NCBI RefSeq assembly: GCF_001006305.1
Contig: NZ_LBHJ01000003.1
Span: forward strand, 609,709-673,708
From: Silvibacterium bohemicum
GTDB lineage: Bacteria > Acidobacteriota > Terriglobia > Terriglobales > Acidobacteriaceae
Length of the DNA: 64,000 bases
Direction of reading: 5' to 3'
The position numbers and the translations under genes were made by a program. Positions 5,605 through 62,854 of the stretch are shown piece after piece. How positions within the stretch are numbered: the first letter of the stretch is position 1; each line of letters begins with the position of its first letter. The notes under the pieces are model-generated. The model was not told where the DNA came from and did no database searches. It saw only the letters and a list, made by a program, of their open reading frames with translations.

Positions 5605-6144
5605 ATGGCTCAACCAATTTATAGAAAAGCAGTCGAGGACACGGTCCCGAAGGTCAACAATGAGATCGCAGTCGGAGAAGATGTAGAGTTTCAACGCAAG
5701 TGGTGGAAGTTCGAGAAGTTGGTGTGGGCTGCTTTCATCTGCTTTGTCCTGCTTGACCTTGCAGGCGTCTTCGGGCGCGGGCCTTTATCGAAAGCACATT
5801 TGGCCACCGCCGACGGAACAGTAAACGTCAGCTATGAACGCGTCCAGCGGACCGGGACGCCTTCCACCCTGAAGGTCGAATTCAGAGATAGGGCTATTCG
5901 GAATAAGCAAATTCGCTTGTGGGCCGGTGAGGATCTTGTGTCCAAGCTCGGTAATAAGCAAATCGCTCCGCAACCCGCCACCTCCGCCGTCGGAGATGGA
6001 GGATTGCATTACACGTTTCCGGCCACGACGGAGCCTGCGGAGATTGTCTTCTCTCTGCAACCGCCGTCCCCTGGCCTCTATGACCTTTCGCTTGGTGTTG
6101 ACGATTTTCCCGCTTTTCACTTCAAGATTCTAGTTATGCCCTGA
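5605..6144 (+). CDS. Unknown single-span membrane protein within the DUF421 cassette
   Basis: Not recognised. The 179-residue product has a charged N-terminus, one clear transmembrane helix at about residues 33-53 (KLVWAAFICFVLLDLAGVFG) and a C-terminal beta-rich extracytoplasmic domain of about 115 residues. The topology suggests a cytoplasmic N-terminus anchored with the globular part outside. It lies between two DUF421 genes with 41-bp and 11-bp gaps, so it is probably co-transcribed with them and may work with that protein family; this rests on context only. Confidence 0.75.
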   Translation: MAQPIYRKAVEDTVPKVNNEIAVGEDVEFQRKWWKFEKLVWAAFICFVLLDLAGVFGRGPLSKAHLATADGTVNVSYERVQRTGTPSTLKVEFRDRAIRNKQIRLWAGEDLVSKLGNKQIAPQPATSAVGDGGLHYTFPATTEPAEIVFSLQPPSPGLYDLSLGVDDFPAFHFKILVMP

Positions 6145-6155
6145 GGTTCTAGCTT

Positions 6156-6596
6156 GTGTACACCATCATTCATGCCATCCTTGGCTACTTCTTTTTACTT
6201 TTTACGGTGCGGGTGCTGAGCCGGCGACCCGGTGGGCAGATGACGCTCTTTGAATTCGTCATCGTCTTCTTGATCGGTGGCGTTATCATCCTGTCCACTG
6301 TTGGAGACGACCGTTCGGTTACAAATTGCGTCGGCGCCGTCATCGTCATTGGGCTTATGCATGGTCTCGTTTCCTAGGGCAAGACTAAGTCTCCCCGCCT
6401 GGGAAGAATCGTTGATGGAACTCCCTTGGTGGCGCTAAAAGACGATCAATGGCAGGACGAGATTATGAAAGGAATGCGGCTTGATGCGAATGACATCATG
6501 GCTGCAGCCCGAACAAAGGGCCTAAGAGACCTATCTCAAATCAAGTACGCAATCCTCGAAAGAAACGGGACGATTTCGATCATCAAGAAGGGCTGA
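6156..6596 (+). pseudogene. Second DUF421 (YetF-like) gene interrupted by an in-frame amber codon
   Basis: Starts with GTG at 6156, 11 bp after the preceding gene. It reads 73 residues of the DUF421 membrane part (FTVRVLSRRPGGQM, FVIVFLIGGVIIL), meets TAG at 6375-6377, and then continues in the same frame with the soluble part (IVDGTPLVALKDDQW, MKGMRLDANDIMAAAR, YAILERNGTISIIKKG) to TGA at 6594-6596. In the intact paralogue at 5114 the residue at the stop is Trp (IAWARTKS versus VS-stop-GKTKS), so one G-to-A change (TGG to TAG) explains it. Readthrough or a sequencing error cannot be excluded. 6597-6911 holds nothing recognisable. Confidence 0.85.
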
Positions 6597-6911
6597 CGGA
6601 CACGAGTCCGGATGAGCATGGAGGGATGTCATTGCCACAAGGTGGGCAAATATATCTTTTTTGAGATTTGCGCATTCGCGATTGCCACTTTTCTATGCCA
6701 CAGGCACACCCGTCGGATGTGGGCGCGTCGTTCGCCTTTGGCGCACCCATCACTTCCGGTTCTCGCAGGCCCGTTAACGTCGGGTTTCGCGTGCGTGTCT
6801 CTTTTATGGCTGGGCCGCGACTTGCGAATGGGCCATCGGTATATAAGCAGCCGGCAAAGTCGCTCAAATCGATCTCGAAGCCTTCAGGGCTGAGGATAGG
6901 AGGCAAAAGCT

Positions 6912-10694: not shown

Positions 10695-11989
10695 GATGGG
10701 ACTCTTTCATTCGCCATGGGCGGATAGCAGATACGATCCTTATGAAGCCACCAGCCGCTGCGTTGCAGCGCCTGGTGAGATGGAGCCAGGCCCTTTGCAA
10801 TCTGTCGTACAACAATTCCCAATTCCGATTCGACCGGGATTCCAGAGCGTGTATCAAAGACACCCGGTTCGTAATAGCCATTCTCGCGGGTAACGAGCTG
10901 ATTCCAATAAAACGAGCCGAGTAGTGCCCAGAAGGTCATCGCGATACACTGTGCGCCCTGGCTTCTTGCGCTCAAGACGCTCTCGTATATCGATGCCGCC
11001 CAGCGAATTTGCTCATTTACCTCTCCCCCAATATGGACCTCTGTAATGGCTACGGGAATTCGATATCGGTCCCACGCTTCCACGATGAGATCCCCCAATC
11101 CGAGAACCGGTGCGTTCTCAGATCGAACTGCCTCAACATCCACAAAAGTGCCTTCGGCTGATCTACATTCTTCAGGATAACTATCTACTTGATGATCGAG
11201 GTATCGGTCGCTCGTAGGATAAAAGTTGATACCGATAACGTCGGGAGGGCATGGATGCTCCGCAAACCACCCTATCTCATTCTCGGAGATGCCAGCAGAC
11301 AGCAGTTCGCGAAATAGCGAATGTCCAGAGTCCACTTTGCCACACAGCAGATCGATGGCCAGCCAACGACGCTGGTTGAGATTCTCCCATACAGGTCTCA
11401 GCATCTCGGTCCCGCTGACTCTTCCGAAATCATCGGTCTGGATGAGTTGCGCATCGTTTCGCACTTGGCGAATGGCTTCCATGCATAGGACGGTTGCCTT
11501 CAGTTGGTGGATCAGAGCTCGGAAGAGACTTGACCGCGACATCTGATGCGGGTACCAGAGGCCGTACATTCCGCTGAACCGTGCCGTCGTGTAGGGTTCA
11601 TTCACCGGGGTGTACTTGGCGATGTCCGGGTATCGGCGCGCTAGAGATCCGGCGTATGCGGCCAGCATTTGAGGGAATCGACTATCCAAGAGGTCTGTAT
11701 GGGCCGGCCCACTGCCATGATGAACCAGTCCCGCTATCACTTCTAATTGTGCTTTGCTGGCGCCCCGCACGTGTTCATCGGTCCATTTCCACGAGGACGC
11801 GCTTTCATAACGCTCCCACAACAGGCCGATCCGAAGGGAGGTCAATCCCAAGTCCGCGAACCTCGAATAATCCTGCGGTCGATGGGCGTGACCAGATAGC
11901 TCCATTTGATCGATGTACCTGTCGCCCACGCGGTTACAGGTATATTCGGCGCCTCCCCAAATCTGCAACGCTTCGAGTTCCATTTGCAT
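10691..11989 (-). CDS. GH1-like family 1 glycosyl hydrolase homologue
   Basis: A 432-residue TIM-barrel protein resembling the family 1 glycosylhydrolase modules that in other bacteria are often fused to a dTDP-4-dehydrorhamnose reductase; here the reductase half is absent. The acid/base Glu is seen at residue 131 (YTPVNEPYTT) and a likely nucleophile Glu at residue 317 (ITEVHIGG). No signal peptide. It is the last gene of a minus-strand operon with glf and a glycosyltransferase (3-bp gap to glf), so it probably acts on, or helps make, a galactofuranose-containing surface glycan. Whether it hydrolyses or transglycosylates is unknown. Confidence 0.8.
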   Translation of the reverse strand: MQMELEALQIWGGAEYTCNRVGDRYIDQMELSGHAHRPQDYSRFADLGLTSLRIGLLWERYESASSWKWTDEHVRGASKAQLEVIAGLVHHGSGPAHTDLLDSRFPQMLAAYAGSLARRYPDIAKYTPVNEPYTTARFSGMYGLWYPHQMSRSSLFRALIHQLKATVLCMEAIRQVRNDAQLIQTDDFGRVSGTEMLRPVWENLNQRRWLAIDLLCGKVDSGHSLFRELLSAGISENEIGWFAEHPCPPDVIGINFYPTSDRYLDHQVDSYPEECRSAEGTFVDVEAVRSENAPVLGLGDLIVEAWDRYRIPVAITEVHIGGEVNEQIRWAASIYESVLSARSQGAQCIAMTFWALLGSFYWNQLVTRENGYYEPGVFDTRSGIPVESELGIVVRQIAKGLAPSHQALQRSGWWLHKDRICYPPMANERVPS

Positions 11990-47238: not shown

Positions 47239-48021
47239 TTAAACCTTCGTCTCCGTCAGCATGGTTTCGACGGGGCCACTCGCCGCTTTGACCATGATAT
47301 TGGGTGCGATTCTGGATCCGGCCCGCAAAACCTTGCTCAGGCCAGGAAGGATCTCTGGTTTATCCTTCCGCAATCCTCCGATTGCGACTGTCACCATTTT
47401 CTTGAGACCCATCATCGGGGCACCCTTCAGGTCCGCGGCAGTAAATGCTCCCTGCAACGGGGTGTCCGTTGCGGGGGGAGCTAACTCGAACACCTTGATT
47501 TTGGTGTTCTTGAGTTGAACACGCAGCGATTGCGTAAACGAATGGATACCCGCTTTTGTTGCGCAGTAGATAGGCGAGATTGGAAAGGGACTGAAGGCTA
47601 GTCCGGAGGACACGTTCACGATGGCGGCGCTAGGCTGGGCGATCAGTAACGGTAGAAACTGCTTCACCATACGTATCGGACCCATCAGATTCGTCTCGAT
47701 CTCCAGGCTAATATCTTTCAGATCACCCCCCGCGTCCTGAAGGTTGATCTTCCGCATGATGCCTGCGTTATTGATCAGCACATTGAGACCCGGAAAACGT
47801 TGAACTACGGTCTGATAGAGCGATGCGATTGCTTGCGGATCATTGACATCACTTTGGATACCGTGAAAATCCGGATGGTCCATTGCGATCTTTTGCAGCT
47901 TGGACGCATCCCGGCCAGTAATAATCACGGTGTTCTTGAGCGCCAAAAGTTGAAGCGCCAATTCAAGTCCGATGCCGGACGTCGCTCCCGTAATCAGAAT
48001 CGTGTTCGCAGAAAGCTTCAT
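47239..48021 (-). CDS. SDR-family oxidoreductase (DltE-like)
   Basis: A 260-residue classical short-chain dehydrogenase: MKLSANTILITGATSGIGLELALQL (NAD(P) site TGATSGIG), NVLINNAGIMRKI (NNAG), Ser in NVSSGLAFSPF and active-site YCATKAG (Y-x3-K). Close in layout to DltE-annotated proteins. The start at 48021 is chosen because family members begin there; the frame opens at 48042. Second gene of the MarR-led operon. Confidence 0.92.
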   Translation of the reverse strand: MKLSANTILITGATSGIGLELALQLLALKNTVIITGRDASKLQKIAMDHPDFHGIQSDVNDPQAIASLYQTVVQRFPGLNVLINNAGIMRKINLQDAGGDLKDISLEIETNLMGPIRMVKQFLPLLIAQPSAAIVNVSSGLAFSPFPISPIYCATKAGIHSFTQSLRVQLKNTKIKVFELAPPATDTPLQGAFTAADLKGAPMMGLKKMVTVAIGGLRKDKPEILPGLSKVLRAGSRIAPNIMVKAASGPVETMLTETKV

Positions 48022-48191
48022 GAGCGCAGTTTCTCCGTGCATCGCCTCTCTCGATCGGCGTATGCGTTATCTAACCAATGTGCCTGTTGACAACAATCGC
48101 AATAGTTCTTAAAGAATCCGGATCCAAATCGTCGAGTTTGGCCGTGTGTTTTGCACGGATAATCCAGCTACATACGCGGAACGAATGGACA

Positions 48192-49530: not shown

Positions 49531-50934
49531 CTATAAGTCCACTAGCCGAAAATCATCGGCAATCTCCCGTCTGGGAATATGCCAGCCGCCCGGCGGAGTG
49601 ACTGCCTCACGGCTCGGTCCCCAGGTGTGGGGTTCGTAGGGGACCACCGGTACTGGGCTTTGAAGGATCGGGTCGACAATTCGCCACGCCTCCTCGACAT
49701 AGTCCTGGCGCGCAAAGAGCGTCGGATCGCCGGCCATCGCATCCGTCAACACTCGTTCGTAGGCTTCCATCTCCCGAGATTCCGCGTGTCGAGTGGCGAT
49801 CAACTCTACTGCACGCCGCTTTGTCTCCTCGCCTGGAGAGGCCACAGAAACGGCCATTGCAATAGTCATCTCAGGGCTGACGCGAAAGCGTATGTAGTTG
49901 TGGGGGCACGCTGCTTCATTGAATTTCGTAGCGGGAGTCCTCCGCAAACGTGCGACCACCTCCGTGCAGGTGGTCGGCAGATTCTTTCCGGATCGAAGAT
50001 AGAAGGGAACACCTTCCCAGCGTGGCGTGCCAATAGTCACCTTGAAAGCTCCGAACGTCTCGACCGTTGAGCCGGGCTTCACACCCGGCTCATTCAGGTA
50101 GCCAATGAACTGCCCGCGCACGACATCTTCCTGTCGCATAGCTGGAATGGCCTTGAGTACCCGAACTTTCTCGTCACGAATGGACTCGCTGTCGCCGTTC
50201 GCGGGCGCCTCCATTGCGAGGTTGCAGAGTACTTGAAAGAGATGGTTTTGCATTACATCTCGAATTGTTCCTGTCTGGTCGTAAAACGCGCCGCGTCCCT
50301 CAACTCCAAAGTCCTCAGCCATGGTGATCTGAATGCTCTCGATGTGCTCCTTGCTCCACAGCGGCTCAAGAAAACAATTGGCGAAGCGGAAGGAAACCAT
50401 GTTGTGAACGGGCCCCTTGGCCAGGTAGTGATCAATTCGATAGATAGAAGATTCCGGGAATTCCGAAAGGAGGATTCGATTGAGATCCTGAGCCGAGGCC
50501 TGGTCATGACCGAAGGGTTTTTCGATGACCGCGCGTGCTCCATGGGAACATCCGCTTGCGGCGATTTGCTTGACTACCGTGTCAAACATCAAGGGCGGTA
50601 TCGCCAGGTAGTGAGCTGGGCGCTGTGACGCTCCAAGCTCCCTCCGAACCTTTACGAACGTTGCTGAATCGGTATAGTCACCGTCCACGTACCGCAGTAA
50701 TTTACTGAGCTGTACGAAGGCAGTGTTGTCCAATCCGCCGTGCTTTTCCAAGCTGTCCTTGGCTCGCGCTACGAATTGATCGAGAGTCCAGCCGGCTCTC
50801 CCGACTCCGATCACTGGGACATTGAGTGTTCCACGCAGTACCATCACTTGAAGTGCAGGAAAGATCTTTTTATAGGCAAGATCTCCCGTTGCCCCGAAAA
50901 ATACAAGTGCGTCCGAATTGGTAGTAGCAGTCAT
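49531..50934 (-). CDS. zwf: Glucose-6-phosphate 1-dehydrogenase
   Basis: Oxidises glucose-6-phosphate to 6-phosphogluconolactone, producing NADPH. The 467-residue product has the coenzyme motif FFGATGDLAYKKIFPAL, the active-site segment SSIYRIDHYLAKG (usual form RIDHYLGKE; the Lys is kept but LGKE is LAKG) and TGTIRDVMQNHLFQVL with the catalytic His. The ATG at 50934 has GGAG upstream; a longer frame begins at 50967. Placed downstream of a thioredoxin-reductase-like gene, it may supply NADPH for the reductases of this region. Confidence 0.93.
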   Translation of the reverse strand: MTATTNSDALVFFGATGDLAYKKIFPALQVMVLRGTLNVPVIGVGRAGWTLDQFVARAKDSLEKHGGLDNTAFVQLSKLLRYVDGDYTDSATFVKVRRELGASQRPAHYLAIPPLMFDTVVKQIAASGCSHGARAVIEKPFGHDQASAQDLNRILLSEFPESSIYRIDHYLAKGPVHNMVSFRFANCFLEPLWSKEHIESIQITMAEDFGVEGRGAFYDQTGTIRDVMQNHLFQVLCNLAMEAPANGDSESIRDEKVRVLKAIPAMRQEDVVRGQFIGYLNEPGVKPGSTVETFGAFKVTIGTPRWEGVPFYLRSGKNLPTTCTEVVARLRRTPATKFNEAACPHNYIRFRVSPEMTIAMAVSVASPGEETKRRAVELIATRHAESREMEAYERVLTDAMAGDPTLFARQDYVEEAWRIVDPILQSPVPVVPYEPHTWGPSREAVTPPGGWHIPRREIADDFRLVDL

Positions 50935-51054
50935 TGGGTCTCCGTCATTTCCAGGTAGAACGGTCATCGTTTGCTAAACTCGCCGCGGCAGAGGCGCGCC
51001 GTTTCTCGCTCCGTCGGCATTACAGTCGTCCCGCACTACAGCTCACTCGTGCAG

Positions 51055-52716
51055 CTATGCAATTGCAAGATCAGCATGCTCCTCAAGAGCAAGGAACTGA
51101 TGAATGAAGGCAATCGCCATACTGCCTTCACCGACACCACTTGAAACTCGCTTGATAGAGCCGTGCCGCACATCGCCCGCGCAAAAGATCCCAGGCAGAC
51201 TCGTCTCCAGCATGAAAGGCTCCCGACCCTTCGGCCACTTCTCAATATCGCGGCCAGTACAAACAAATCCGTTAACATCGCGCTGAATCGCTTCTGGCAG
51301 CCATTCGGTTCGCGCGCGAGCACCGATCATTACAAACAGAGCATCCGCTGGCCTTTGAACGAGCGCTTTCTCCTGAGTAATGGTGGATATCGATTCCAAA
51401 CAATCTGCTCCATGTGCAGACTCCACCCTCGTGAAAGTTTCGACAGCGATGTTTCTGGATTGAGCCAGTTGATCAATCAAGTACTGTGACATCGTGGATG
51501 CGAGCCCTGCCCCGCGAACAAGGATCGTCACCGACTCCGCGTAGCTGGAGAAAAATATGGCCGCCTGGCCTGCCGAGTTCCCCCCGCCAACAATGAAAAC
51601 CTTCTTTCCCACGACGGTCGCGGCCTCGGTTCTAGCAGCACCGTAGAGGACGCCTTTTCCCTGAAGCCGATCAATGCCCTCAGCTTCCAGCCTGCGCCAA
51701 TCAACGCCGGTTGCAAGAACAGCAGCCTTCGTCGTGACCTTACTTCCGCCATCGAGTTCGACGCGATAGCCGCCCGGCACCGTTTCAATCTGTTGCACAT
51801 CTCGGGTCATTACCATCTCCGCCCCGAAGCGAGAAGCCTGTTTCAATGCCCGTGAACTCAAGTCGTCTCCGGAAATACCATTGGGAAAGCCGAGATAGTT
51901 TTCGATCCGGGACGATGTGCCTGCCTGGCCCCCAGCAGCGTTTCTCTCCACCAGGAGAACTCGCAGACCCTCAGATGCTCCGTACACCGCAGCCGCAAGC
52001 CCCGCAGGTCCGCCCCCCACTACAACTACGTCGTAATTACTGTCGGCAGGTGCAGTCCCGATTCCTAATGCGTCCGCAACTTTGCGCACAGTCAGCGGTG
52101 CGTCGATGAGAACTGATTTATCCACTAGCACGAACGACCCACTCAAGCCTGCGGGCACATATGCGGGGATACGATCAGTCTCTCGCCCACTATCACACCA
52201 TTCGTAAGGAATTCGGTTCAGAGACAGGAAGACTCGGATGTCACGACACTCGGCGTCGTATTGTGAGCCAACGACGAGGGCGCGCAGAGGATTGTTGTCA
52301 CGGGTATAGTCGCGGATCGCCGTGACCCGCTTCATCATCACTTGCACGACCAGATTGCTACACTCCAGCGAAGAGTCAATCAGTTCTTTGAACAGCATCC
52401 GATCGAGCCTGACGACTCTCGAAGCTTCGTGTGCGCGTAAGGACGCTATCGTCGGAGAATCAAGCAGAATCGAGGTCTCCCCAAAGAAATCACCGGGATA
52501 GTATTGCCAACTCGCGTCGCTCTTTCCGCGATGCTCCTTCTCGATCTCTACGCAGCCCTGGAGTAAAACGAAAAACCAGGGCACCTCCCCTTCTCTTATC
52601 AGCCAGTCGCCTTTTGGGACGTAGAGATCTGCTGCATTGTGGGCTACGCGGTGGCGTAACTCTTCGGACAGGCAAGCAAAGAACGGAATTGTTTTGAGTT
52701 CATCAGGTTGAATCAT
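51055..52716 (-). CDS. Cyclic-nucleotide-binding domain fused to a thioredoxin-reductase-like FAD oxidoreductase
   Basis: A 553-residue fusion. Residues about 1-130 form a cNMP-binding-like domain (FACLSEELRHRVAHNAADLYVPKGDWLIREGE; PGDFFGETSILLDSPTIASLRA). A thioredoxin-like or linker segment follows (RDIRVFLSLNRIPYEWCD), then the two-dinucleotide-domain reductase (YDVVVVGGGPAGLAAAVYGASEGL; VGKKVFIVGGGNSAGQAAIFFSSYA; GIFCAGDVRHGSIKRV). The redox CxxC of true thioredoxin reductases is replaced (VLYGAARTEA), so electrons are not passed to a thioredoxin in the classical way. The stop lies 120 bp before zwf. Confidence 0.9.
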   Translation of the reverse strand: MIQPDELKTIPFFACLSEELRHRVAHNAADLYVPKGDWLIREGEVPWFFVLLQGCVEIEKEHRGKSDASWQYYPGDFFGETSILLDSPTIASLRAHEASRVVRLDRMLFKELIDSSLECSNLVVQVMMKRVTAIRDYTRDNNPLRALVVGSQYDAECRDIRVFLSLNRIPYEWCDSGRETDRIPAYVPAGLSGSFVLVDKSVLIDAPLTVRKVADALGIGTAPADSNYDVVVVGGGPAGLAAAVYGASEGLRVLLVERNAAGGQAGTSSRIENYLGFPNGISGDDLSSRALKQASRFGAEMVMTRDVQQIETVPGGYRVELDGGSKVTTKAAVLATGVDWRRLEAEGIDRLQGKGVLYGAARTEAATVVGKKVFIVGGGNSAGQAAIFFSSYAESVTILVRGAGLASTMSQYLIDQLAQSRNIAVETFTRVESAHGADCLESISTITQEKALVQRPADALFVMIGARARTEWLPEAIQRDVNGFVCTGRDIEKWPKGREPFMLETSLPGIFCAGDVRHGSIKRVSSGVGEGSMAIAFIHQFLALEEHADLAIA

Positions 52717-52734: not shown

Positions 52735-54405
52735 CTATGCCTCTTGCCTTTGCAGGCTTTGGCTATCCGCGATCGGTTCATCGGAGTACTGCGTCTTGGG
52801 ACCGATCTCGCCGAGAAGCGGCAGAAGGGTCGCGTCGACCTCCACCTGCAGGACATATGGCCCAGGGAAGGCAAGACCTTTCAAAATTGCTGCTTCCAGC
52901 TCTGACGGTTTAGACACGTAATCGCCTTCACATCCGTAGCCTTTCGCAAGTTGCACGGTGTCGATACCGGGAAGGTCGAAGCCGGGGACTTCCGGTGCGA
53001 CTAGATAGGTGCTGAAGGCCTTCAGGATGTTGTATGCGTGGTTGCGCAGAATGATGTAGAAGACGGGTAGCTTGTGCTGCGCCGCGGTCCAGAAAGACTG
53101 GATCACATACTGCGTCGCACCATCCCCCATCAGGCAAATCACTTTACGATTCGTGCCAAGATCCCGCTCTGCCAAAGCCACGCCGCCTGCCGCGGGGAGA
53201 CCGTAGCCGAGGACACCGCTAAACATCGAAAAGAATGATCTCGGTTGAGAGATTCGGATGCGGTCATGCAAGGGACCGAGTGTAGACAGTGATTCCTGCA
53301 CAATGACCGAATTCTTCGGACGAAGCTTCTCAACCGTGTGGTAGAGATAGTCGGCCGTGATAATTTCGCCAACCGTCGGTTCCGGACTCGGCGGCAACGG
53401 CAGCGGCGCCTTGCGCCAGGTTACAGGAAGCAGTTCTACGAGAGTTGCGCAGGCGCGCGCGGGATCACAAACAACGCTATCCCCGACAACAGCGCGTGCG
53501 GTCTCTTCTGCACTGTCACTGAGGTGTATAAGTTTAGTGCCCTGCGGCAGCGGATGGCCCGGTGCGTAAGGATAATAGCGGAACACTGGCGCGCCAATAA
53601 CTACGACCAGGTCATATCCTTCGAGTTGCTTACAGACGGAACTCATACCACTAAGCAGCCCGCCCTGATAGAGGGGATGGTTTTCCGGAAAACCGGGCCG
53701 GCCCTCAAACGGCGCCGCCCAGACAGCAGCTTTCACTTTTTCTGCTAACGCGATCGCGTCATACCATCCCCCGGTTTGGTCTATCGCACCACCGAATACA
53801 AGTGCAGGGGTTTTCGCTGCTGCCAGTGCATCGGCCACAGGCTGCAACACATCTTTTCCAGCGGAGAGGCGAGGTTCGACGATGCGGAGCTGAGGCAATA
53901 CCGGACACTCCTTGTCCATGTCGTCCATGGGAAGAGAGAGATACACAGGTCCAGCGGGCGCCTGTATTGCGGTTGCGTAAGCTCGAAAGAATGCCGCAGG
54001 AACATCCTCAGCACGAGCGGGCTCATAGCTCCACTTCACCCACGGCTGGGCCTGTTGGTAGGGATTCTTGTTTGTCAGGTACGGCTCATGGATTAACATC
54101 TCCCGCATATGCTGTCCGGCGGTGATGATCATGGGCGTTCTGTTATAAAAGGCAGTTTCGATATTGCCCATGCCATTCCCACTACCTGCAGCGGTATGCA
54201 GATTCACATGCGCCACCTTGCCGGATGCCTGGGAGTAAGCATCCGCCATCGCAACAGCCACGGATTCCTGCAATGCGAGCACATACTGAAAATCTGAAGG
54301 GAACTCTTTCAGCATCGGCTCTTCTGTAGAGCCGACATTGCCGAAGATCTTTGTCATATCGAGCTTCCTCATCAGTTCAAATAGAACTTCCCTGACCGTC
54401 GCCAT
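52735..54405 (-). CDS. mdlC: ThDP-dependent 2-keto acid decarboxylase (benzoylformate decarboxylase-like)
   Basis: A 556-residue thiamine diphosphate enzyme. In benzoylformate decarboxylase numbering, Ser26 (FGNVGSTEEP), Glu47 (LALQE) and His70 (VNLHTAAGSGNG) fall exactly at residues 26, 47 and 70. The second active-site His (281 in the Pseudomonas enzyme) is replaced by Tyr in RYYPYAPGHPL, so the substrate may differ from benzoylformate. The ThDP/Mg motif is GDGATQYVIQSFWTAAQHKLPVFYIILRN. ATG at 54405 follows GAGGAGAGAA. It lies 79 bp after the mandelate-racemase-like gene, forming a keto-acid or mandelate-type catabolic pair; the mandelate dehydrogenase step is not encoded here. Confidence 0.85.
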   Translation of the reverse strand: MATVREVLFELMRKLDMTKIFGNVGSTEEPMLKEFPSDFQYVLALQESVAVAMADAYSQASGKVAHVNLHTAAGSGNGMGNIETAFYNRTPMIITAGQHMREMLIHEPYLTNKNPYQQAQPWVKWSYEPARAEDVPAAFFRAYATAIQAPAGPVYLSLPMDDMDKECPVLPQLRIVEPRLSAGKDVLQPVADALAAAKTPALVFGGAIDQTGGWYDAIALAEKVKAAVWAAPFEGRPGFPENHPLYQGGLLSGMSSVCKQLEGYDLVVVIGAPVFRYYPYAPGHPLPQGTKLIHLSDSAEETARAVVGDSVVCDPARACATLVELLPVTWRKAPLPLPPSPEPTVGEIITADYLYHTVEKLRPKNSVIVQESLSTLGPLHDRIRISQPRSFFSMFSGVLGYGLPAAGGVALAERDLGTNRKVICLMGDGATQYVIQSFWTAAQHKLPVFYIILRNHAYNILKAFSTYLVAPEVPGFDLPGIDTVQLAKGYGCEGDYVSKPSELEAAILKGLAFPGPYVLQVEVDATLLPLLGEIGPKTQYSDEPIADSQSLQRQEA

Positions 54406-54484
54406 TTCTCTCCTCATTCGTAGACTGTTGGGGACTTAGAACTCCCTCGCAGCAGTACTCGAGGAGGAGGTCGTAGTCGATTGA

Positions 54485-55579
54485 CTAGGCTTTCAGCGCG
54501 TACTTCGCGATGGCTTTTTCGTTCCAGCCGATCCCGGTTCCTGGCTTGTCGAGCGCGGTGATTTGACCTTTGATGGGTACGGTGGGCTCGGACAGGATTG
54601 GATTAGCCCAGTCGACCCACTCCAACCAGTGCGCCGTAGGAGTGACCCGAAGAAGATGGGCAGAGATTTCCGGATACACATGATTGGACATTTGAATCCC
54701 GGCAGCCGCGGCAACCCCCGCCGTCCTCATCCATCCGCTGATACCTCCTATACGCATGAGGTCGGGCATCACGTAGTGCACCGCCTTCGCCTGTAGGAAG
54801 TTCATCAAATCGCGCTCACCATAAAAGTTCTCGCCCATCTGGAGAGGGGTCGTCACGCGTTTTGCAATCTCTGCATAGCCAGCGATGTTGTTGTAGAGGA
54901 TCGGTTCTTCCAACCAATAGAGTCCTTCATTGTCGAGATCGCAACACCGCCTAATGGCATCTCCAAGACCCAAGGCTTGGTTAAAGTCCACCATGATGTC
55001 GACTTCTGCCCCGACCGCATCTCGAACGGCATGAATCGCTGCGAGGTCGTCGCGCAGTCGCTCATTACCGAGGCGAAGCTTCGCTGCTGTGAACCCGCCT
55101 TCCGACAGGAGCTCCTTTGCTTCAGCGCCCAAAGTGTCTACGCTGTGCCTCCACAGGCCATTGCTGTTGTAGGAACGGATAGGACCGATGCTTCCTCCGA
55201 GCAGACACGCCAAGGGGAGTCCAGCTTCTTTAGCGAGTGCATCCCAAAGGGCCATATCAACTGCAGCAGTCGCAAGAGTAGAAACACCGCTCACCCCCAC
55301 GACGTTGAGTGCCTTTTGCACAACCTGAAAGGCGTCGAAGGGTTCCGAACGGCCTGCTAGTTGAGTAGCGATATCGCGGATCTCTGCAATGATTGCCGTT
55401 ACAGCGTGTTCGCGATATGGCGCGATATAACTCGACCCGATGATGCCGCCCTCTAACTCTAGATCAACAAGGATCAAGGGCCATTGAGCAAACGTACCAA
55501 TGTCTGCGATGATCGGCCTGCGAAGCGGGACAAGGACAGCGCGTACGTTCGCGCGTTTAAGACGGCTCACCGAACTCAT
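54485..55579 (-). CDS. Mandelate racemase/muconate lactonising enzyme family protein
   Basis: A 364-residue enolase-superfamily member. Relative to Pseudomonas mandelate racemase, ligands and bases are offset by three: K167 and R169 (AKLRLG; the native KxK has Lys at the second site), metal ligands D198 (VDFNQ), E224 (LEEP), E250 (MGEN), D273 (MPDLMRIGG), base H300 (SNHVYPE) and E320 (WLEW). Loss of the second Lys, which acts on (S)-mandelate, suggests a one-base dehydratase or epimerase of altered specificity rather than a true racemase. ATG at 55579 follows AAAGGAAC. Upstream gene of the decarboxylase. Confidence 0.85.
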   Translation of the reverse strand: MSSVSRLKRANVRAVLVPLRRPIIADIGTFAQWPLILVDLELEGGIIGSSYIAPYREHAVTAIIAEIRDIATQLAGRSEPFDAFQVVQKALNVVGVSGVSTLATAAVDMALWDALAKEAGLPLACLLGGSIGPIRSYNSNGLWRHSVDTLGAEAKELLSEGGFTAAKLRLGNERLRDDLAAIHAVRDAVGAEVDIMVDFNQALGLGDAIRRCCDLDNEGLYWLEEPILYNNIAGYAEIAKRVTTPLQMGENFYGERDLMNFLQAKAVHYVMPDLMRIGGISGWMRTAGVAAAAGIQMSNHVYPEISAHLLRVTPTAHWLEWVDWANPILSEPTVPIKGQITALDKPGTGIGWNEKAIAKYALKA

Positions 55580-55764: not shown

Positions 55765-57015
55765 CTATTTCAATAGCACGGGACCAGCATCGATCTTCAC
55801 GCGAAACAATATGTATGGCTTCTCGCGCAAATCCTGACCTTCGTGGAATTGTGGCTGGCGAGGGAACTGGTTCGCTGTGAAGTACAGGTAGCCATCGGAC
55901 GCAACAGAGAGCGTGTCCGGCCAGAGAACCCTTGGATTGTGAACGATTGTTTTCCACTCCCCGTTGGTTTGCATCTGACGAATACTGTTGTGTTCGTAGT
56001 CGCCGGCATAAACTCTTCCCTTATCGTCGCTCTCAAGGCCATCCGAGGCACCCTTTTCACCTAGGTCGACTACAGCCTCAGAGATAGTCTTGCTGTTGTC
56101 AGCGGTATCCAGGAGAAGTTCGGTCGGAACGGAGTATAGATGCCTGCTTGACAGCGGACAGTAGTAGAGCGTTCTTCCGTCGGAGGACAAGGCTATGCCG
56201 TCGGATGCAATGCTGAGGGGTACCGGGGCCTTCCCCTTCTCTCTTGTCGCGAGCCGCTCCCCTTCGACGATAGGGACGAAGGACAGGTCGGGCGAAGTAG
56301 ACCGATGGCCCGTGAGCTTGCGCCAGCTATTTCCGCTTTCGAGATCAACCACAATGATGCCGCCTGGGCCATTAGCGGACGAATCCGTGATATAGGCAAC
56401 GCCACCTTTACCCTTCCGCAGGTCGAAGCGCACATCATTGAGATAGGTTGTGGGTAGAACCGTCGTAGCGGGAAGGACGATACTCTTCACGACTTTATTC
56501 GTGACCAGGTCCACAGCGATTAGCTTGGCCGCACCTACCAGAGGTGTCGTAAACTTCGGAGCAGCCGTGTCCAGTATCCACAAGCGATTTGCCGCATCGA
56601 CGACGACGCTCTGTACACTTCCCAGGGTCTCCCCAGGGTGCGCCGGATCGAATGTATTGATGTGCTGATCGGGATAGGCCACGACTTTGCCATCCTGAAT
56701 CACACCAACCGTGAAGGGGACCCCATCTCCCCATCGGGGGAAGTTCAGGAAGATTCTTCCGTCGGCGGCAACTGTTACCCCCGTTGGCATTGCGTCAAAA
56801 AAGCGAAAGACCGGCTCGATACTTCCGATGCTGCGATCAGTCGCAATTTTGTCGTTGGACACACTTTCTTGGGGATTTACTGAGTTTTGCATATCACCTC
56901 CGCGTGACTGAGAATGGGCTAGCTGCCAGAAACTCAGAGACAGTGCTAATCCGAATGCCAAAGGCGCACAGACGATCTTCATGTGCGTACCGCAAACATT
57001 GAAAAAGTGCGACAT
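55765..57015 (-). CDS. Secreted SMP-30/major-royal-jelly-like beta-propeller protein
   Basis: A 416-residue exported protein. The signal peptide is HMKIVCAPLAFGLALSLSFWQLAHSQS; the mature part is a six-bladed propeller-like sequence (MPTGVTVAADGRIFLNFPRWGDG; VQSVVVDAANRLWILDT; YLNDVRFDLRKGKGGVAYITDSS; SDGIALSSDGRTLYYCPLSSRHLYSV; ASDGLESDDKGRVYAGDYEHNSIRQM) matching the MRJP/yellow and SMP-30 group; these may act as lactonases or tautomerases. Start at 57015 has GGAG at good spacing and lies 2 bp after the heme-binding gene's stop; an inner ATG at 56982 is an alternative. Confidence 0.85.
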   Translation of the reverse strand: MSHFFNVCGTHMKIVCAPLAFGLALSLSFWQLAHSQSRGGDMQNSVNPQESVSNDKIATDRSIGSIEPVFRFFDAMPTGVTVAADGRIFLNFPRWGDGVPFTVGVIQDGKVVAYPDQHINTFDPAHPGETLGSVQSVVVDAANRLWILDTAAPKFTTPLVGAAKLIAVDLVTNKVVKSIVLPATTVLPTTYLNDVRFDLRKGKGGVAYITDSSANGPGGIIVVDLESGNSWRKLTGHRSTSPDLSFVPIVEGERLATREKGKAPVPLSIASDGIALSSDGRTLYYCPLSSRHLYSVPTELLLDTADNSKTISEAVVDLGEKGASDGLESDDKGRVYAGDYEHNSIRQMQTNGEWKTIVHNPRVLWPDTLSVASDGYLYFTANQFPRQPQFHEGQDLREKPYILFRVKIDAGPVLLK

Positions 57016-57017
57016 AA

Positions 57018-57448
57018 TCAGGACTCCAGCGAGGCTAATAACGCATCGCGTCCGGCTTCGGCAACTGCAACATCCTGCTCCGTGGTGCCGGATCCGACGC
57101 CTATGGCGCCGAGTAACTCACCCTTGTAAATAATGGGGAATCCGCCACCAAGATTTGTGATTCCACCATGGCTGGCGAAGGCGAGGTTGGCGCCGAACTC
57201 AAACGGGATGCCACCCGTGGGAGCTCCGAGTGCAGCCGAAGTAGTAGCCTTGGCGATCGCAGGTTGAACGGCCAGGACTGCCGCTCCATCGATACGGGCA
57301 TAGGCCAATAAATTTCCACCGCGTCTACGACTGCAATGCACTCGGGTGCGGAAATTTCCATCGACTTTGCGACTGCAGCCGCGATGACTATCGCGGCACC
57401 GGCATAGGTCAACTGATTGCGGCTTTGGAAAAATGCTGTCTTCGACAT
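57018..57448 (-). pseudogene. GlcG/HbpS-family heme-binding-like protein with a single-base frameshift
   Basis: First frame: MSKTAFFQSRNQLTYAGAAIVIAAAVAKSMEISAPECIAVVDA. Second frame: GGNLLAYARIDGAAVLAVQPAIAKATTSAALGAPTGGIP, to GGITNLGGGFPIIYKGELLGAIGVGSGTTEQDVAVAEAGRDAL, the standard GlcG/HbpS sequence. The break is at about 57316-57322, where GCGGTGGAAAT should read GCGGGTGGAAAT, i.e. one G lost from a run of three. Without it the gene would be an intact about 143-residue protein. Upstream element copy 3 and the coupling to the propeller gene suggest an active operon, so a sequencing error is quite possible. Confidence 0.85.
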
Positions 57449-57535
57449 CTCAGGATCTCCTCGTAATCTAGAGATCGCGTGCGGCTTCTGCAATCTCACG
57501 AATGAGATAAGAATGCTCTTATTGGAGCGAACAGA

Positions 57536-57575: not shown

Positions 57576-57987
57576 ACAAGCGATTGCGAAGATATGACGC
57601 TTGCAGGCTGCTCCGACATTCTCTGGGGAGGGGCCATTCTCGCCCATGAAATCAGCTCATTCTAGCTATTCGCGTTCCGCAATTCTCGCTACGAGGCATA
57701 GATTGAGGGCGATTGCGAAATCGACATAGTCGCCATGAGAACATTTCATGCTCTTTAAGTGAACGATTCGACTCCATATCTATACACCGCAAGTTCGGAG
57801 CTCCAGACCGGAACGCTTGAGCTGTCAAAGGGATAGTTCGTGGAGATGTGCCGACCCAGCAATGAACTGGTGGTGAGTCGCAGAACACAGTATGCACTGA
57901 ATGCAGATTAGATTTCTTCAACTTTCGATGCGTCCGCGAGGCGCTAATCGGGATGGATACCAAAACAGAAAGGCAGGCTGCCGGTCC

Positions 57988-58854
57988 ATGATTGAGAATC
58001 GTCATCTTCGCTACTTTAGCGTTCTGGCTCGCACACTCCATATGACTCGGGCGGCGGAACAATTGCATATCGCGCAGCCGGCGCTGACACAAAACATTCA
58101 ACAGCTTGAAGAAGAATTGGGAATATCCCTGATCCACCGAAACGGTCGCAAGCTGTCTCTAACGGTGGCCGGGGAGGTCTTCCTCCTCGAAGCAGAGCGT
58201 AGTCTCGAAAAGTTCGAGGGCGCGAAGTTCGCTGCTCAGCGCGCAGGTCGAGGCGAGCTCGGACACATAGCGATCGGCTTCGGAACGGCTGCCGACGTCG
58301 TTGTGGTACCTCGATTGGTAAAGAGCTTTGCGGACCACTACCCGGATGTTGCGATTCAGCTCAAGGAAATGGGAAGCGACGATCAGGTTCTTGCATTGCG
58401 GAGTGGGGAGATCGATATCGCGATCTCCTATACAACGCCCAACGCGGAATTCAATCATCGCGAACTGCCGCCTGAGTCATTGATCGTGCTCCTGAACGAC
58501 CAGCATCGCCTTGCGAAGCAAAATTCCATTGATATCGCAGATCTGAGACAAGATCGGTTGATTTTGCCCTCCAAGAATGTAGCAGCGACCCTCTCAGAAG
58601 CAGTCATGCTTGAATTTGCGGGATATGGCCTTAAGCCACGGTCGATACAAGAGGTGGCTACTTGGCAAACAGCGATCGGGCTAGTGTCCGTGGGTGTCGG
58701 AGTGTCGATTATGCCAGTCTCGGTGTCCGCATACACGCGAGAAAATGTCGTAACTCGTCCAATCAAAAATCCCGGTCGCGAAGTGCGACTGCTGCTTTCG
58801 TGGCAGCGAGGGAATGTTTCCTCTGTTGCTCAGCATCTAATATCCGCGATCTGA
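57988..58854 (+). CDS. LysR-type transcriptional regulator, paralogue B
   Basis: A 288-residue regulator starting MIENRHLRYFSVLARTLHMTRAAEQLHIAQPALTQNIQQLEEELG, a near copy of the HTH of the 44293 regulator, with a more diverged effector domain (HIAIGFGTAADVVVVPRLVKSF; LRSGEIDIAISYTTPNAEF). Because recognition helices are almost identical, both proteins probably bind the same DNA, and the 40-bp elements are the obvious candidate. The start at 57988 matches the paralogue's start. The gap 57576-57987 has no gene. The FAH-family gene follows 87 bp downstream on the same strand. Confidence 0.93.
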   Translation: MIENRHLRYFSVLARTLHMTRAAEQLHIAQPALTQNIQQLEEELGISLIHRNGRKLSLTVAGEVFLLEAERSLEKFEGAKFAAQRAGRGELGHIAIGFGTAADVVVVPRLVKSFADHYPDVAIQLKEMGSDDQVLALRSGEIDIAISYTTPNAEFNHRELPPESLIVLLNDQHRLAKQNSIDIADLRQDRLILPSKNVAATLSEAVMLEFAGYGLKPRSIQEVATWQTAIGLVSVGVGVSIMPVSVSAYTRENVVTRPIKNPGREVRLLLSWQRGNVSSVAQHLISAI

Positions 58855-58941
58855 TTCGGGCAAGTCGTTGAACACTGCCGCGTTCAAATGACTCCCTACC
58901 AAGTCCTTCATTGGCCACGCAAAACAAGAGGAGAAAGATTC

Positions 58942-59766
58942 ATGCAACAATTTGCACGTATCCGTCAGGCAGCAACCACGATTCCAGTACTCATTCGCAA
59001 TCAAACTCTTTTGGATCTTCGGCCGATTGTCTCTGACATCACGCCCGAGACGATTGCAAGCGGTAGCTTGACGAAGATCGAGGCTGGCGAACTCAAGGAG
59101 CTTTCAGGTGAAGTCACGTATTTGGAGCCAATCGCTGGGATTCGGCAGGTCGCGGCAACTGGGTTCAACTACAAGAAGCACATTGAAGAACTGAAGGTAC
59201 CTGCCCCTACCGAGCCCGAGGTCTTCCTCAAATCAACGCTTTCCCTAACTGGCCCTCTCGACCCTATTCGCCGCGGCCCAAGTGTGGGCGCGAAGCTGGA
59301 TTGGGAGACGGAATTAGCAATCGTCGTCGGACGCGAAGTGCAGGACATCGATGCAGTCGACGCCGCAGAATACATCTTTGGCTACACTTGCATTAACGAT
59401 ATCTCCGACCGAGCGACCCAAGTCGATGCAGCGCATGTACAGCATCTGGTTCGTGCGAAATCTCGCCCTACTTACGGCCCGATCGGTCCGTATCTTACAA
59501 CCGGTATTGATGCGATGAGCCTCGACGTCTGGACCAAACTCAACGGGAATTACGAGCAGCAAGGGAATACCAGCGATATGCTGTTCCACATCCATGAGAT
59601 GCTTGCTTACTTTTCTCGCTATATGCGGCTTCTTCCGGGGGACATTCTGGCGACTGGCACACCGCCAGGAGTCGGCATGGGAAAGAACCGGTACATGGCA
59701 GTCGGAGATATCCTGGAGTGCGGCATCACCCATCTGGGAGCCCAGCGGCACGAGATCATCGCCTAG
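58942..59766 (+). CDS. Fumarylacetoacetate hydrolase family protein
   Basis: A 274-residue FAH-fold enzyme: GIRQVAATGFNYKKHIEEL, EVFLKSTLSLTGP, the metal-binding DWETELAIVVGREV (Glu-x-Glu, with an upstream Glu), YIFGYTCINDISDR and LPGDILATGTPPGVGMGK. Family members cleave or decarboxylate keto-acids in aromatic breakdown. ATG at 58942 follows GAGGAGAAAG. Right next to LysR paralogue B, supporting a catabolic role in the same pathway. 59767-60038 shows no gene. Confidence 0.92.
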   Translation: MQQFARIRQAATTIPVLIRNQTLLDLRPIVSDITPETIASGSLTKIEAGELKELSGEVTYLEPIAGIRQVAATGFNYKKHIEELKVPAPTEPEVFLKSTLSLTGPLDPIRRGPSVGAKLDWETELAIVVGREVQDIDAVDAAEYIFGYTCINDISDRATQVDAAHVQHLVRAKSRPTYGPIGPYLTTGIDAMSLDVWTKLNGNYEQQGNTSDMLFHIHEMLAYFSRYMRLLPGDILATGTPPGVGMGKNRYMAVGDILECGITHLGAQRHEIIA

Positions 59767-60038: not shown

Positions 60039-60671
60039 CTAAGCAGTTTTCGGCTGAAGTTCGGCGATAAATTGAAGATGCGTGAGTGGACGTGAGAACA
60101 TCCAGAAATTCTTCTCTACCGCCGCTCGCTGCTCCTCTTCGCCGATCGTGGCCGTGCAGTCCGTCAGGGTGACGACATCGTAGCCCTTGTCGTACCCAGT
60201 ACGGGCTGTTGATTCGACACAGCAGTTCGTCAGCAGGCCGCCTATCGCGATCGTCGTAATGTTACGGCGCCGAAGGATGAAATCGAGATTCGTGGTTGTA
60301 AAACCGTCGAAGCCTCTCTTTCCCTCAACGATGATATCGCCCGCCTGCCGAGGGAGAGCATCGACGATCTCCGCCCCCCATGTCCCCTTACGAAAGGCGT
60401 TTGCCTCAATGACTTTTTTCAGGAGTCCGTATGGGTTCGGTCCGAGTTCACCAAAGCCGTCGGCGAACGTAATCGGAAGGAACATGATGGTCGTGCCCAA
60501 TGCACGCGCCTTTTCGACGAGTTTTGCGGTGTTCGCTAGCATGTTACTGCTCGCGACGACGTCCTTGACTCCGCTGTGCATCGCACCCTTCGGCGATAGA
60601 AAGTCGTTTTGATACTCAATTAGCACCAATGCTGCCGTCTTCGGATCCACCAATTGTTTGTTTTCTGCCAT
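60039..60671 (-). CDS. Isochorismatase-like cysteine hydrolase
   Basis: A 210-residue hydrolase: ALVLIEYQNDFLSPKGAM, Lys 118 in VEGKRGFDGF and nucleophile Cys 151 in GGLLTNCCVESTARTGYDKGY. The first triad position is Glu 19 (LIEYQNDF) rather than the usual Asp, as in some YcaC-like members, so it need not act on isochorismate. ATG at 60671 has AAAAGGA upstream. The inverted repeat at 60707-60722, 36 bp upstream, overlaps a possible -10 box TATACA, indicating control by the MarR protein. Confidence 0.9.
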   Translation of the reverse strand: MAENKQLVDPKTAALVLIEYQNDFLSPKGAMHSGVKDVVASSNMLANTAKLVEKARALGTTIMFLPITFADGFGELGPNPYGLLKKVIEANAFRKGTWGAEIVDALPRQAGDIIVEGKRGFDGFTTTNLDFILRRRNITTIAIGGLLTNCCVESTARTGYDKGYDVVTLTDCTATIGEEEQRAAVEKNFWMFSRPLTHLQFIAELQPKTA

Positions 60672-61981: not shown

Positions 61982-62854
61982 ATGGGAGTTTTGGACGGTA
62001 AAGTTGCGGTTGTTACAGGTGCCTCAAAAGGCATCGGGGCCGGCATTGCAAAAGGTTTGGCCGCTGCAGGAGCGATGGTTGTTGTCAACTACGCCACAAG
62101 CAGAGAAGGTGCCGACAGGGTGGTCGCGGATATCGTCGGCCAGGGCGGCAAAGCGATCGCAGTACAGGGAAGCATCGCCAACTCTTCGGATGTGGAGCGG
62201 CTCTTCGAAGAGACCGTGAAGGCCTTCGGGACAGTCGATGTGCTTGTCAATAATGCGGGCGTGTACTCCTTCGGCCCCTTGGAGTCCGTCACGGAGCAGG
62301 AGTTTCATAGGCAGTTCAATACCAACGTGCTCGGTATCTTCCTCAGCACACAGGAGGCAGTCAAGCGCTTCGGGGCAAACGGTGGCAGTGTCATCAATAT
62401 TGGGACCGCGGGAACCCAGGTGACATCACCTGGGACGGTGCTCTATACCGCGACCAAAGGTGCCGTCGACTCCATAACGCAAGTACTTTCAAAGGAACTA
62501 GGACCGAAGAAAATTCGGGTGAACTCGATTAATCCAGGCGGCACGGAGACCGAAGGCGCTCATGCAATTGGCGTCATAGGAAGTGATTTCGAAAAGCATC
62601 TCGTCTCTCAGACGCCGCTTGGCCGCTTTGGGCAACCCTCGGACATTGCGCCGATTGCCGTTTTTCTGGCGTCAGATCAATCCGGCTGGCTTACCGGCGA
62701 GACCCTGATCGCTTCGGGGGCATGCGATAACGGAAGCAAGGATGCGTTTCCGGCCGTTTGGCAGGCAAGAAACGTATCCTCCGCTGATTTATCTACCAAA
62801 ACTTTTCTTCCCATTTCTGCAGGTACGTACCTCGTGCAAATCACAATCCGGTGA
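61982..62854 (+). CDS. SDR-family oxidoreductase, C-terminus probably frameshifted
   Basis: A classical short-chain dehydrogenase: VAVVTGASKGIGAGIAKGL, VDVLVNNAGVYSFGPL, Ser in NIGTAGTQ, active-site LYTATKGAV (Y-x3-K) and SGWLTGETLIASG. Family members end ASGGMR or ASGGLR; here ASG is followed by ACDNGSKDAF and about 40 unrelated residues. Adding one G to the run at 62716-62720 restores GGMR and a TAA at 62728-62730, so the natural end is probably 62730 and the tail, which overlaps the next gene, is an artefact or mutation. ATG at 61982 follows GAGGAGAAAG. Divergent from HxlR, its likely regulator. Confidence 0.85.
   Translation: MGVLDGKVAVVTGASKGIGAGIAKGLAAAGAMVVVNYATSREGADRVVADIVGQGGKAIAVQGSIANSSDVERLFEETVKAFGTVDVLVNNAGVYSFGPLESVTEQEFHRQFNTNVLGIFLSTQEAVKRFGANGGSVINIGTAGTQVTSPGTVLYTATKGAVDSITQVLSKELGPKKIRVNSINPGGTETEGAHAIGVIGSDFEKHLVSQTPLGRFGQPSDIAPIAVFLASDQSGWLTGETLIASGACDNGSKDAFPAVWQARNVSSADLSTKTFLPISAGTYLVQITIR

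Follow-up and report, generated by a model that had tools for sequence, protein, structure and literature searches.

A 64-kb window of the Silvibacterium bohemicum genome (the whole 64,000-nucleotide stretch analysed, from contig NZ_LBHJ01000003.1) carries adjacent genes for a mandelate racemase (MR)-like enzyme of the enolase superfamily and a benzoylformate decarboxylase (BFD)-like enzyme dependent on thiamin diphosphate (ThDP). By similarity alone the pair would be named mandelate racemase and benzoylformate decarboxylase. Sequence comparisons place the two enzymes on sister branches of those that degrade mandelate, found together in distantly related bacteria, and the MR-like enzyme has Arg at position 166 and the BFD-like enzyme Tyr at position 281. 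In six genomes the two genes form a genuine module whose members have diverged in parallel; there is good support for an enolase-ThDP module that is co-inherited and not of the classical kind, and it probably degrades a hydroxy acid other than mandelate. The two genes are:

54485..55579, minus strand: MR-like enolase-superfamily enzyme, 364 aa, with K164-x-R166 (PF02746/PF13378, alignments, structure match)
52735..54417, minus strand, likely start 54405 (556 aa): BFD-like ThDP-dependent 2-keto acid decarboxylase with Tyr281 (NF005485, alignments)

Alignment to solved mandelate racemases bore out the original prediction that Lys166 is replaced by Arg while His297, Asp270 and Glu317 are kept. 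K164, D195, N197, E221, E247, D270, H297 and E317 were all retained, comprising the His297–Asp270 dyad, Glu317 and the three metal carboxylates (D195, E221 and E247), and the enolase-superfamily fold was indicated both by PF02746/PF13378 and by the fold match. The second base of the KxK motif is absent, K164-L-R166 standing where the solved racemases have K-x-K. A K166R mandelate racemase (1MDL) reportedly has low residual activity. The enzyme also carries K164, R166, R273 and Y137-N-S139, a set read off in this analysis for the KxR relatives of mandelate racemase, 3UGV among them, and without a published definition.

Five duplicate rows were dropped before homologues were counted, and the homologue scan of genome contigs covered the best 80 of 593 stretches. 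Among the matches listed, Arg166 was present in 51 and Lys in five of the 56 rows with at least 37 % identity; all Lys166 rows lay at 38–42 % identity, and every row at 44 % or above had Arg. This 51/56 is the measure of constancy, the 44/44 of the ‘other KxR’ group being no such count as that group was picked by its Arg. A tree of 84 MR-like rows (79 different) contained 61 KxR, 14 KxQ, eight KxK and one KxG. The seven genomes closest to the window formed a starred group of eight rows (100/99; one genome appears twice), lying within a larger starred group, of 41 rows (100/98), all of them KxR. Over the tree as a whole KxR requires three changes, and five of the KxK rows, including the Rhizobium rhizogenes K84 and Cupriavidus racemases, were nested among KxR rows; KxR therefore does not form a single clade, and the change may have run either way. 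The KxQ (Gln166) rows of the MR subgroup (L062–L075) fall into two groups, four from Chloroflexota and 10 from Pseudomonadota, and represent another natural loss of the second base.

Arg166 and Arg273 were also considered as a mechanistic couple. All 56 rows at 37 % identity or above fit such a couple (51 R/R, five K/K), but distant homologues break it (103 rows: 53 R/R, six K/K, six K/R, four R/K and 34 others; three of the K/R rows are overlapping loci of one gene in the window's own genome). The idea was set aside, and the coupling may reflect only lineage.

The AlphaFold2 model of the MR-like protein, built with 17 window and locus sequences, had a mean predicted local distance difference test score of 88.6 and a predicted template-modelling (TM) score of 0.89. 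Foldseek ranked 3UGV first (TM 0.96), followed by the mandelate-bound Bradyrhizobium enolase 3TTE and the mandelate racemases, and then talarate dehydratase. The KxK of L-talarate/galactarate dehydratase, which we take to be K195/K197 (the K197A mutant 2PP3 is among the structure matches), is replaced by KxR in the MR-like enzyme.

The BFD-like enzyme likewise agreed with what had been claimed for it. Alignment to solved BFDs showed that S26, E47 and H70 are retained and that FRYYPY stands where classical enzymes have FRYHQY, placing Tyr at His281. Its score against the benzoylformate decarboxylase family model NF005485 (608.3 bits) exceeded the cut-off of 493, and its best scores in the PDB were to two other Tyr281 proteins, 4K9Q (521 bits) and 4Q9D (498 bits), with MdlC at 414 bits. 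Tyr281 occurred in 17 of the 18 BFD-like matches from 248 genomes sampled from the window's order, and in eight of the 23 from 297 genomes of the Acuticoccus order (His in 14, a gap in one). All BFD-like rows with at least 44 % identity had Tyr281 and the His rows lay at 38–43 %; a tree of 63 BFD-like rows, 44 of them different, requires two changes for Tyr and two for His.

The two substitutions do not carry the same weight. The original prediction had pointed out both, and of these Arg166 is the stronger evidence: in the available text of PMC9835602, mandelate racemase has Lys166 as its S-specific and His297 as its R-specific base. Tyr281 was dropped as evidence for a new reaction, being shared by many relatives and lying at a position where published His281 mutants stay active. 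In the Pseudomonas putida enzyme, according to the accessible part of PMC6028569, replacement of His281 by Phe lowered kcat 5-fold and replacement by Trp or Glu less than about 20-fold, and calculation assigned His281 a role in substrate binding only; a His281Ala variant gave 35 compared with 390 U/mg in the portion available of PMC2976732. As His281 can be replaced at a modest loss of kcat, Tyr281 says little. Both residues are common to large numbers of relatives and are not private to the window pair. Chance substitution or sequencing error was ruled out, as each residue is constant among close relatives. It is the pairing of an Arg166 with a Tyr281 enzyme that is new, not the substitutions, and no description of such a module was found in the literature searched, which covered few subscription journals.

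Seven genomes were found in the group with at least 60 % identity to the MR-like enzyme, and six of them hold the Arg166/Tyr281 pair. The genes are directly adjacent in four (the window, G223, G200 and Mycolicibacterium peregrinum) and separated by one aldehyde dehydrogenase gene in Acuticoccus yangtzensis and G782. In the seventh, Pseudonocardia xinjiangensis, a beta-propeller gene adjoins the MR-like gene instead and the best BFD match is 35 %. Identity to the window enzymes falls in parallel (90, 77, 62, 61 and 60 % for MR; 92, 84, 58, 59 and 59 % for BFD) and the two trees cluster the same genomes. An MR-like gene was present in six of the eight genomes of the closest BFD-like group, and absent from the 5.3 and 4.2 kb contigs of the other two (G211 and G147). 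The Arg166 enzyme is rare in the sampled genomes: an MR-like match at E ≤ 1e-60 was obtained in four of 249 genomes from the window's order (the window's included; one match is a KxK protein), and matches at E ≤ 1e-90 in one of 401 genomes from the M. peregrinum family, 13 of 397 from the Acuticoccus order and two of 297 from the Pseudonocardia family, the starting genome being included each time.

As had been predicted, no mandelate dehydrogenase accompanies the pair. The flavin mononucleotide (FMN)-dependent dehydrogenase family FMN_dh (PF01070) had no match in the 64-kb window. Other contigs of the window's genome gave only two matches, each covering part of the barrel (profile positions 222–307 of 350) and just reaching the family cut-off of 24.9 (37.8 and 24.9 bits); full-length members score 337–458 bits in four comparison genomes. 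No full-length FMN_dh was found in the window's genome or in the pair-bearing genomes nearest to it, G223 and G200, where matches were partial only (best 37.8 bits, some nominally over the cut-off), and a homologue of the K84 mandelate dehydrogenase was found in none of the six pair loci. The FMN mandelate dehydrogenase that lies beside the MR and BFD genes in an mdlABC-type operon is thus missing here.

Sixteen other decarboxylase loci were read, none of which contained an Arg166 enzyme. Three from the window's family (L200–L202) combine a propeller (56–58 % identical), a Tyr281 decarboxylase (42–43 % identical), a ketopantoate-reductase-like gene, a GMC dehydrogenase and a gene that matches gluconate-2-dehydrogenase subunit 3 weakly (20.3 bits; cut-off 23.4), and L203 has the same set without the propeller. 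In L197, genes for a D-2-hydroxyacid dehydrogenase and for an aldehyde dehydrogenase lie 3–7 kb from the decarboxylase, and L196 has a gene of the same sequence cluster as that D-2-hydroxyacid dehydrogenase. Genes were annotated in L201 and L197 and assigned by sequence cluster in L200, L202, L203 and L196. A possible keto-acid-making dehydrogenase thus lies near the decarboxylase in six of the 16 loci, and in the window's group the Arg166 enzyme may take the dehydrogenase's place. This contrast is the main comparative argument for a dehydratase–decarboxylase route, which, coming from few loci, it supports without proving. The L200–L202 cluster also includes a sodium symporter gene. A further cluster in the window's own genome (L018 6572–13051) has a second, pyruvate-oxidase-like ThDP enzyme followed by a KxK enzyme of the MR/MLE type, a 319-aa product that matched no Pfam family, a subunit 3 of gluconate-2-dehydrogenase and a GMC oxidoreductase, and so shows the same theme of ThDP enzyme, enolase and dehydrogenase.

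The flap residues of mandelate racemase are Val22, Thr24, Ala25, Val26 and Val29 in the available text of PMC9835602. By alignment the MR-like enzyme has I22, A24, D25, I26 and F29, keeps Y54, and has Ala for F52 and Arg for T55, so that positions 22, 26, 29 and 54 are still hydrophobic or aromatic. The pocket looks mainly hydrophobic with added charges, and a sugar acid would fit it less well than a branched or aryl hydroxy acid. Positions 52 and 54 presumably line the pocket. Position 52 is Glu in 25 of the 44 other Arg166 rows and Ala or Ser in the subclade of the pair; as Glu52 is frequent in the former, substrates probably differ within the Arg166 branch. The suggestion of a different alpha-hydroxy or sugar acid survives in its first part, being favoured by the constancy of Arg166 in the branch and by co-inheritance of the pair, and the partly hydrophobic pocket seems to count somewhat against sugar acids.

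We tentatively propose a two-step catabolic module in which a one-base dehydratase is followed by a ThDP decarboxylase. The MR-like enzyme would hold an alpha-hydroxy acid on Mg2+, and the His297–Asp270 dyad, as the one base, would take the alpha proton. Arg166 is probably too basic to be a second base and might instead grip the substrate or enediolate. The intermediate would shed a beta substituent, most simply water, and with no re-protonation from the opposite face a 2-keto acid would result directly. The adjacent ThDP enzyme would decarboxylate it to an aldehyde, to be oxidized by an aldehyde dehydrogenase such as that encoded between the pair in Acuticoccus and G782 (none was located in the window); a propeller protein encoded next to the MR-like gene may open a lactone to supply the hydroxy acid. 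We infer the one-base elimination, the hand-over of the keto acid, the lactone step and the substrate. Dehydration is the likeliest single mechanism in our estimate, at somewhat less than an even chance. The original prediction had put forward the same route as removing the need for a dehydrogenase; it gains from the six-genome module, the three genomes without a full-length FMN_dh and the dehydrogenases found in the place of the Arg166 enzyme at some loci, and it loses from other oxidoreductases, which appear to keep a racemase-plus-dehydrogenase route alive.

Several observations weigh against the dehydratase–decarboxylase proposal. The best-scoring characterized relative of the MR-like enzyme is mandelate racemase (264 bits; talarate dehydratase 162 bits), and no NCBIfam model, dehydratase models included, reached its cut-off in a scan of the protein, the nearest being NF047820 for L-talarate/galactarate dehydratase (198.6 bits, cut-off 500). 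The mostly hydrophobic flap fits a substrate that has few hydroxyl groups to lose. Most loci of the Arg166 clade showed no BFD-like gene near the MR-like one: it was found in four of 35, a lower bound as several loci are short. The 10 remaining decarboxylase loci of the 16, compared by sequence cluster, had neither dehydrogenase cluster. Full-length FMN dehydrogenases occur elsewhere in the genomes of M. peregrinum, Acuticoccus and G782 (and in that of Pseudonocardia). The window's genome has, elsewhere, one FAD-oxidase_C match (158.8 bits) and two GMC matches, one of them in another enolase/ThDP cluster, and the window itself has two short-chain dehydrogenase genes (47239–48042 and 61982–62854, named by eye from sequence). 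There is a zinc-type oxidoreductase in the M. peregrinum neighbourhood, and a molybdopterin-binding protein with a cytochrome c in that of G782.

These oxidoreductases leave room for a possible, if doubtful, alternative in which the MR-like enzyme is a racemase or epimerase that uses His297 and Arg166 as an acid-base pair to invert a hydroxy acid other than mandelate, and the keto acid is made by a dehydrogenase of FAD-oxidase_C, GMC, short-chain or NAD type that is encoded at another site. Mandelate racemase is the closest characterized relative, the remaining catalytic set is intact, candidate dehydrogenases are present in the window and its genome, and in L200–L202 the propeller and Tyr281 decarboxylase occur with a GMC dehydrogenase. 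Arg acts as a base in a few enzymes, IMPDH being an example. Against this, Arg does not as a rule carry protons well at neutral pH. The lack of a mandelate-dehydrogenase homologue in the six pair loci and of a full-length FMN_dh in three of the genomes also speaks against this alternative.

In the loci compared, genes were called with a simple open reading frame (ORF) caller. The genes flanking the pair in the window are:

55765..57015, minus strand: beta-propeller of the major royal jelly protein family (PF03022), next upstream of the MR-like gene
57018..57499, minus strand: HbpS/GlcG-like gene, two reading frames in the window (ORFs, comparison with L015)
57901..58854, plus strand: divergent LysR-type regulator, syntenic in G223 (profile match, synteny)
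51055..52716, minus strand: cyclic-nucleotide-binding thioredoxin-reductase-like protein, downstream of the BFD-like gene (profile match)
49531..50967, minus strand: glucose-6-phosphate dehydrogenase, downstream (profile match)

On the minus strand the order of transcription is propeller, MR-like, BFD-like, thioredoxin-reductase-like and glucose-6-phosphate dehydrogenase genes. The last two were set aside as pathway parts, as among the other five pair loci they occur in G223 only. The MR-like gene starts with the ATG at 55579, with AAAGGAA upstream; the BFD-like gene most likely starts at its second ATG, 54405, behind GGAGAGAA, where close homologues also begin. The gap between the two is 67 or 79 bases, depending on the BFD start, and a terminator scan gave no minus-strand site in it; counts from sigma-70 promoter and terminator scans were not above those of shuffled sequences. 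Decay of the genes was ruled out by the full-length open frames and the confident model of the MR-like protein. The HbpS/GlcG-like gene is a single frame in the relative L015 (9238–9669), and the window copy is possibly a pseudogene or an assembly error. Also near the pair, and syntenic in G223, are genes for a fumarylacetoacetate-hydrolase-family protein (58888–59766, plus strand) and an isochorismatase-family hydrolase (60039–60671, minus strand). In M. peregrinum (L025), an isochorismatase-family gene (10776–11432) follows the BFD gene, and an acetolactate decarboxylase gene (6123–6905; above the TIGR01252 cut-off) lies about 1 kb from the MR-like gene.

The propeller protein matched PF03022 at 134 bits (cut-off 19.8) and the SGL lactonase model at 25.3 bits, below its cut-off of 26.3; our guess is a possible lactonase or tautomerase. 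Besides the window, six of 35 clade loci contain both the MR-like gene and a propeller gene; the two adjoin in L015 and in L026, and are some 6 kb apart in L025. This sharing would also suit an MR-like enzyme that is a cycloisomerase or lactone-handling partner of the propeller, with the decarboxylase acting on a downstream keto acid, and the lactone cycloisomerases 4HPN and 5XD7 are among the fold matches. They rank far lower, however, at 25–28 % identity, and three Methylocystaceae propellers are just 26–27 % identical to the window's, and we regard this explanation as improbable. Upstream of the MR-like gene, at a distance of 1.5–2.5 kb, both Acuticoccus and G782 have nitrile hydratase genes (L051 scanned, L124 by eye), and the substrate could enter there as a hydroxynitrile. 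These are an alpha gene and a short beta gene with a match to the C-terminal domain only (L051 5444–6453; L124 6292–7295).

An ordinary mandelate racemase and BFD with tolerated substitutions, an unrelated enzyme elsewhere replacing mandelate dehydrogenase, is very unlikely: the 5-fold cost in kcat of His281 to Phe (PMC6028569, accessible part), the NF005485 score above cut-off, the K166R racemase crystallized with (R)-mandelate according to the title of 1MDL, and the Acuticoccus nitrile hydratase genes, which recall the nitrilases of the K84 mandelate operon, speak for it, yet the S-specific base Lys166 (PMC9835602, available text) is replaced by Arg in all rows with at least 44 % identity, pocket positions 24, 25, 52 and 55 differ too, and the KxK/His281 operon of K84 has a mandelate dehydrogenase between both genes.

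The dehydratase–decarboxylase proposal can be carried further, to a natural dehydration–decarboxylation shortcut without a redox step, fed by a propeller-opened lactone and spread horizontally in Actinomycetota, Pseudomonadota and the window's phylum, as a counterpart of an engineered lactonase–dehydratase–MdlC route. In this full form it seems to us rather unlikely. If the dehydratase reading holds, matched pairs of a dehydratase and a decarboxylase for making aldehydes and diols could be drawn from nature. The co-inherited decarboxylase limits the reaction of the MR-like enzyme to one that ends in a 2-keto acid and makes the function of the Arg166 branch testable with two purified proteins. 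The name mandelate racemase is probably wrong for the whole branch, 3UGV included.

Compared with known systems, the MR-like enzyme shares with mandelate racemase (MdlA of P. putida; 1MNS, 2MNR, 1MDL) the fold (TM by query length 0.92–0.95), the metal ligands, K164, N197, His297–Asp270 and Glu317, and differs from it in having Arg for Lys166 and for Lys273 and in T24A, A25D, V29F, F52A and T55R, at about 37 % identity. It is closer to 3UGV from alphaproteobacterium BAL199 (EFI-501650), with which it has KLRMG, NSNG and R273 in common (47–48 % identity, TM 0.96); 3UGV differs in having Glu at position 52, where the window has Ala, and its entry title names no function. The BFD-like enzyme has S26, E47, H70 and the ThDP domains in common with MdlC (1BFD) and with the Tyr281 relatives 4K9Q and 4Q9D, and differs from MdlC in Tyr281 and in scoring higher to these relatives, of which 4K9Q yielded glycolaldehyde from formaldehyde in one study (PMC6435721, as far as its text is available). 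Pseudomonas LLC-1, according to the accessible part of PMC7760541, uses a BFD with neither MR nor mandelate dehydrogenase. The mandelate operon on plasmid pAtK84c of R. rhizogenes K84 resembles the window in holding MR and BFD homologues in one gene run; it differs in its FMN dehydrogenase between the two, its KxK racemase and its His281 decarboxylase. The engineered route differs from the proposed module in having been built in Escherichia coli, in its sugar-acid substrate and in its dehydratase, YjhG, which lies outside the enolase superfamily. Consisting of a xylonolactonase, a xylonate dehydratase and MdlC and leading to 1,2,4-butanetriol, it nevertheless follows the order proposed here, with lactone opening, dehydration and decarboxylation in succession (PMC4680960, available text).

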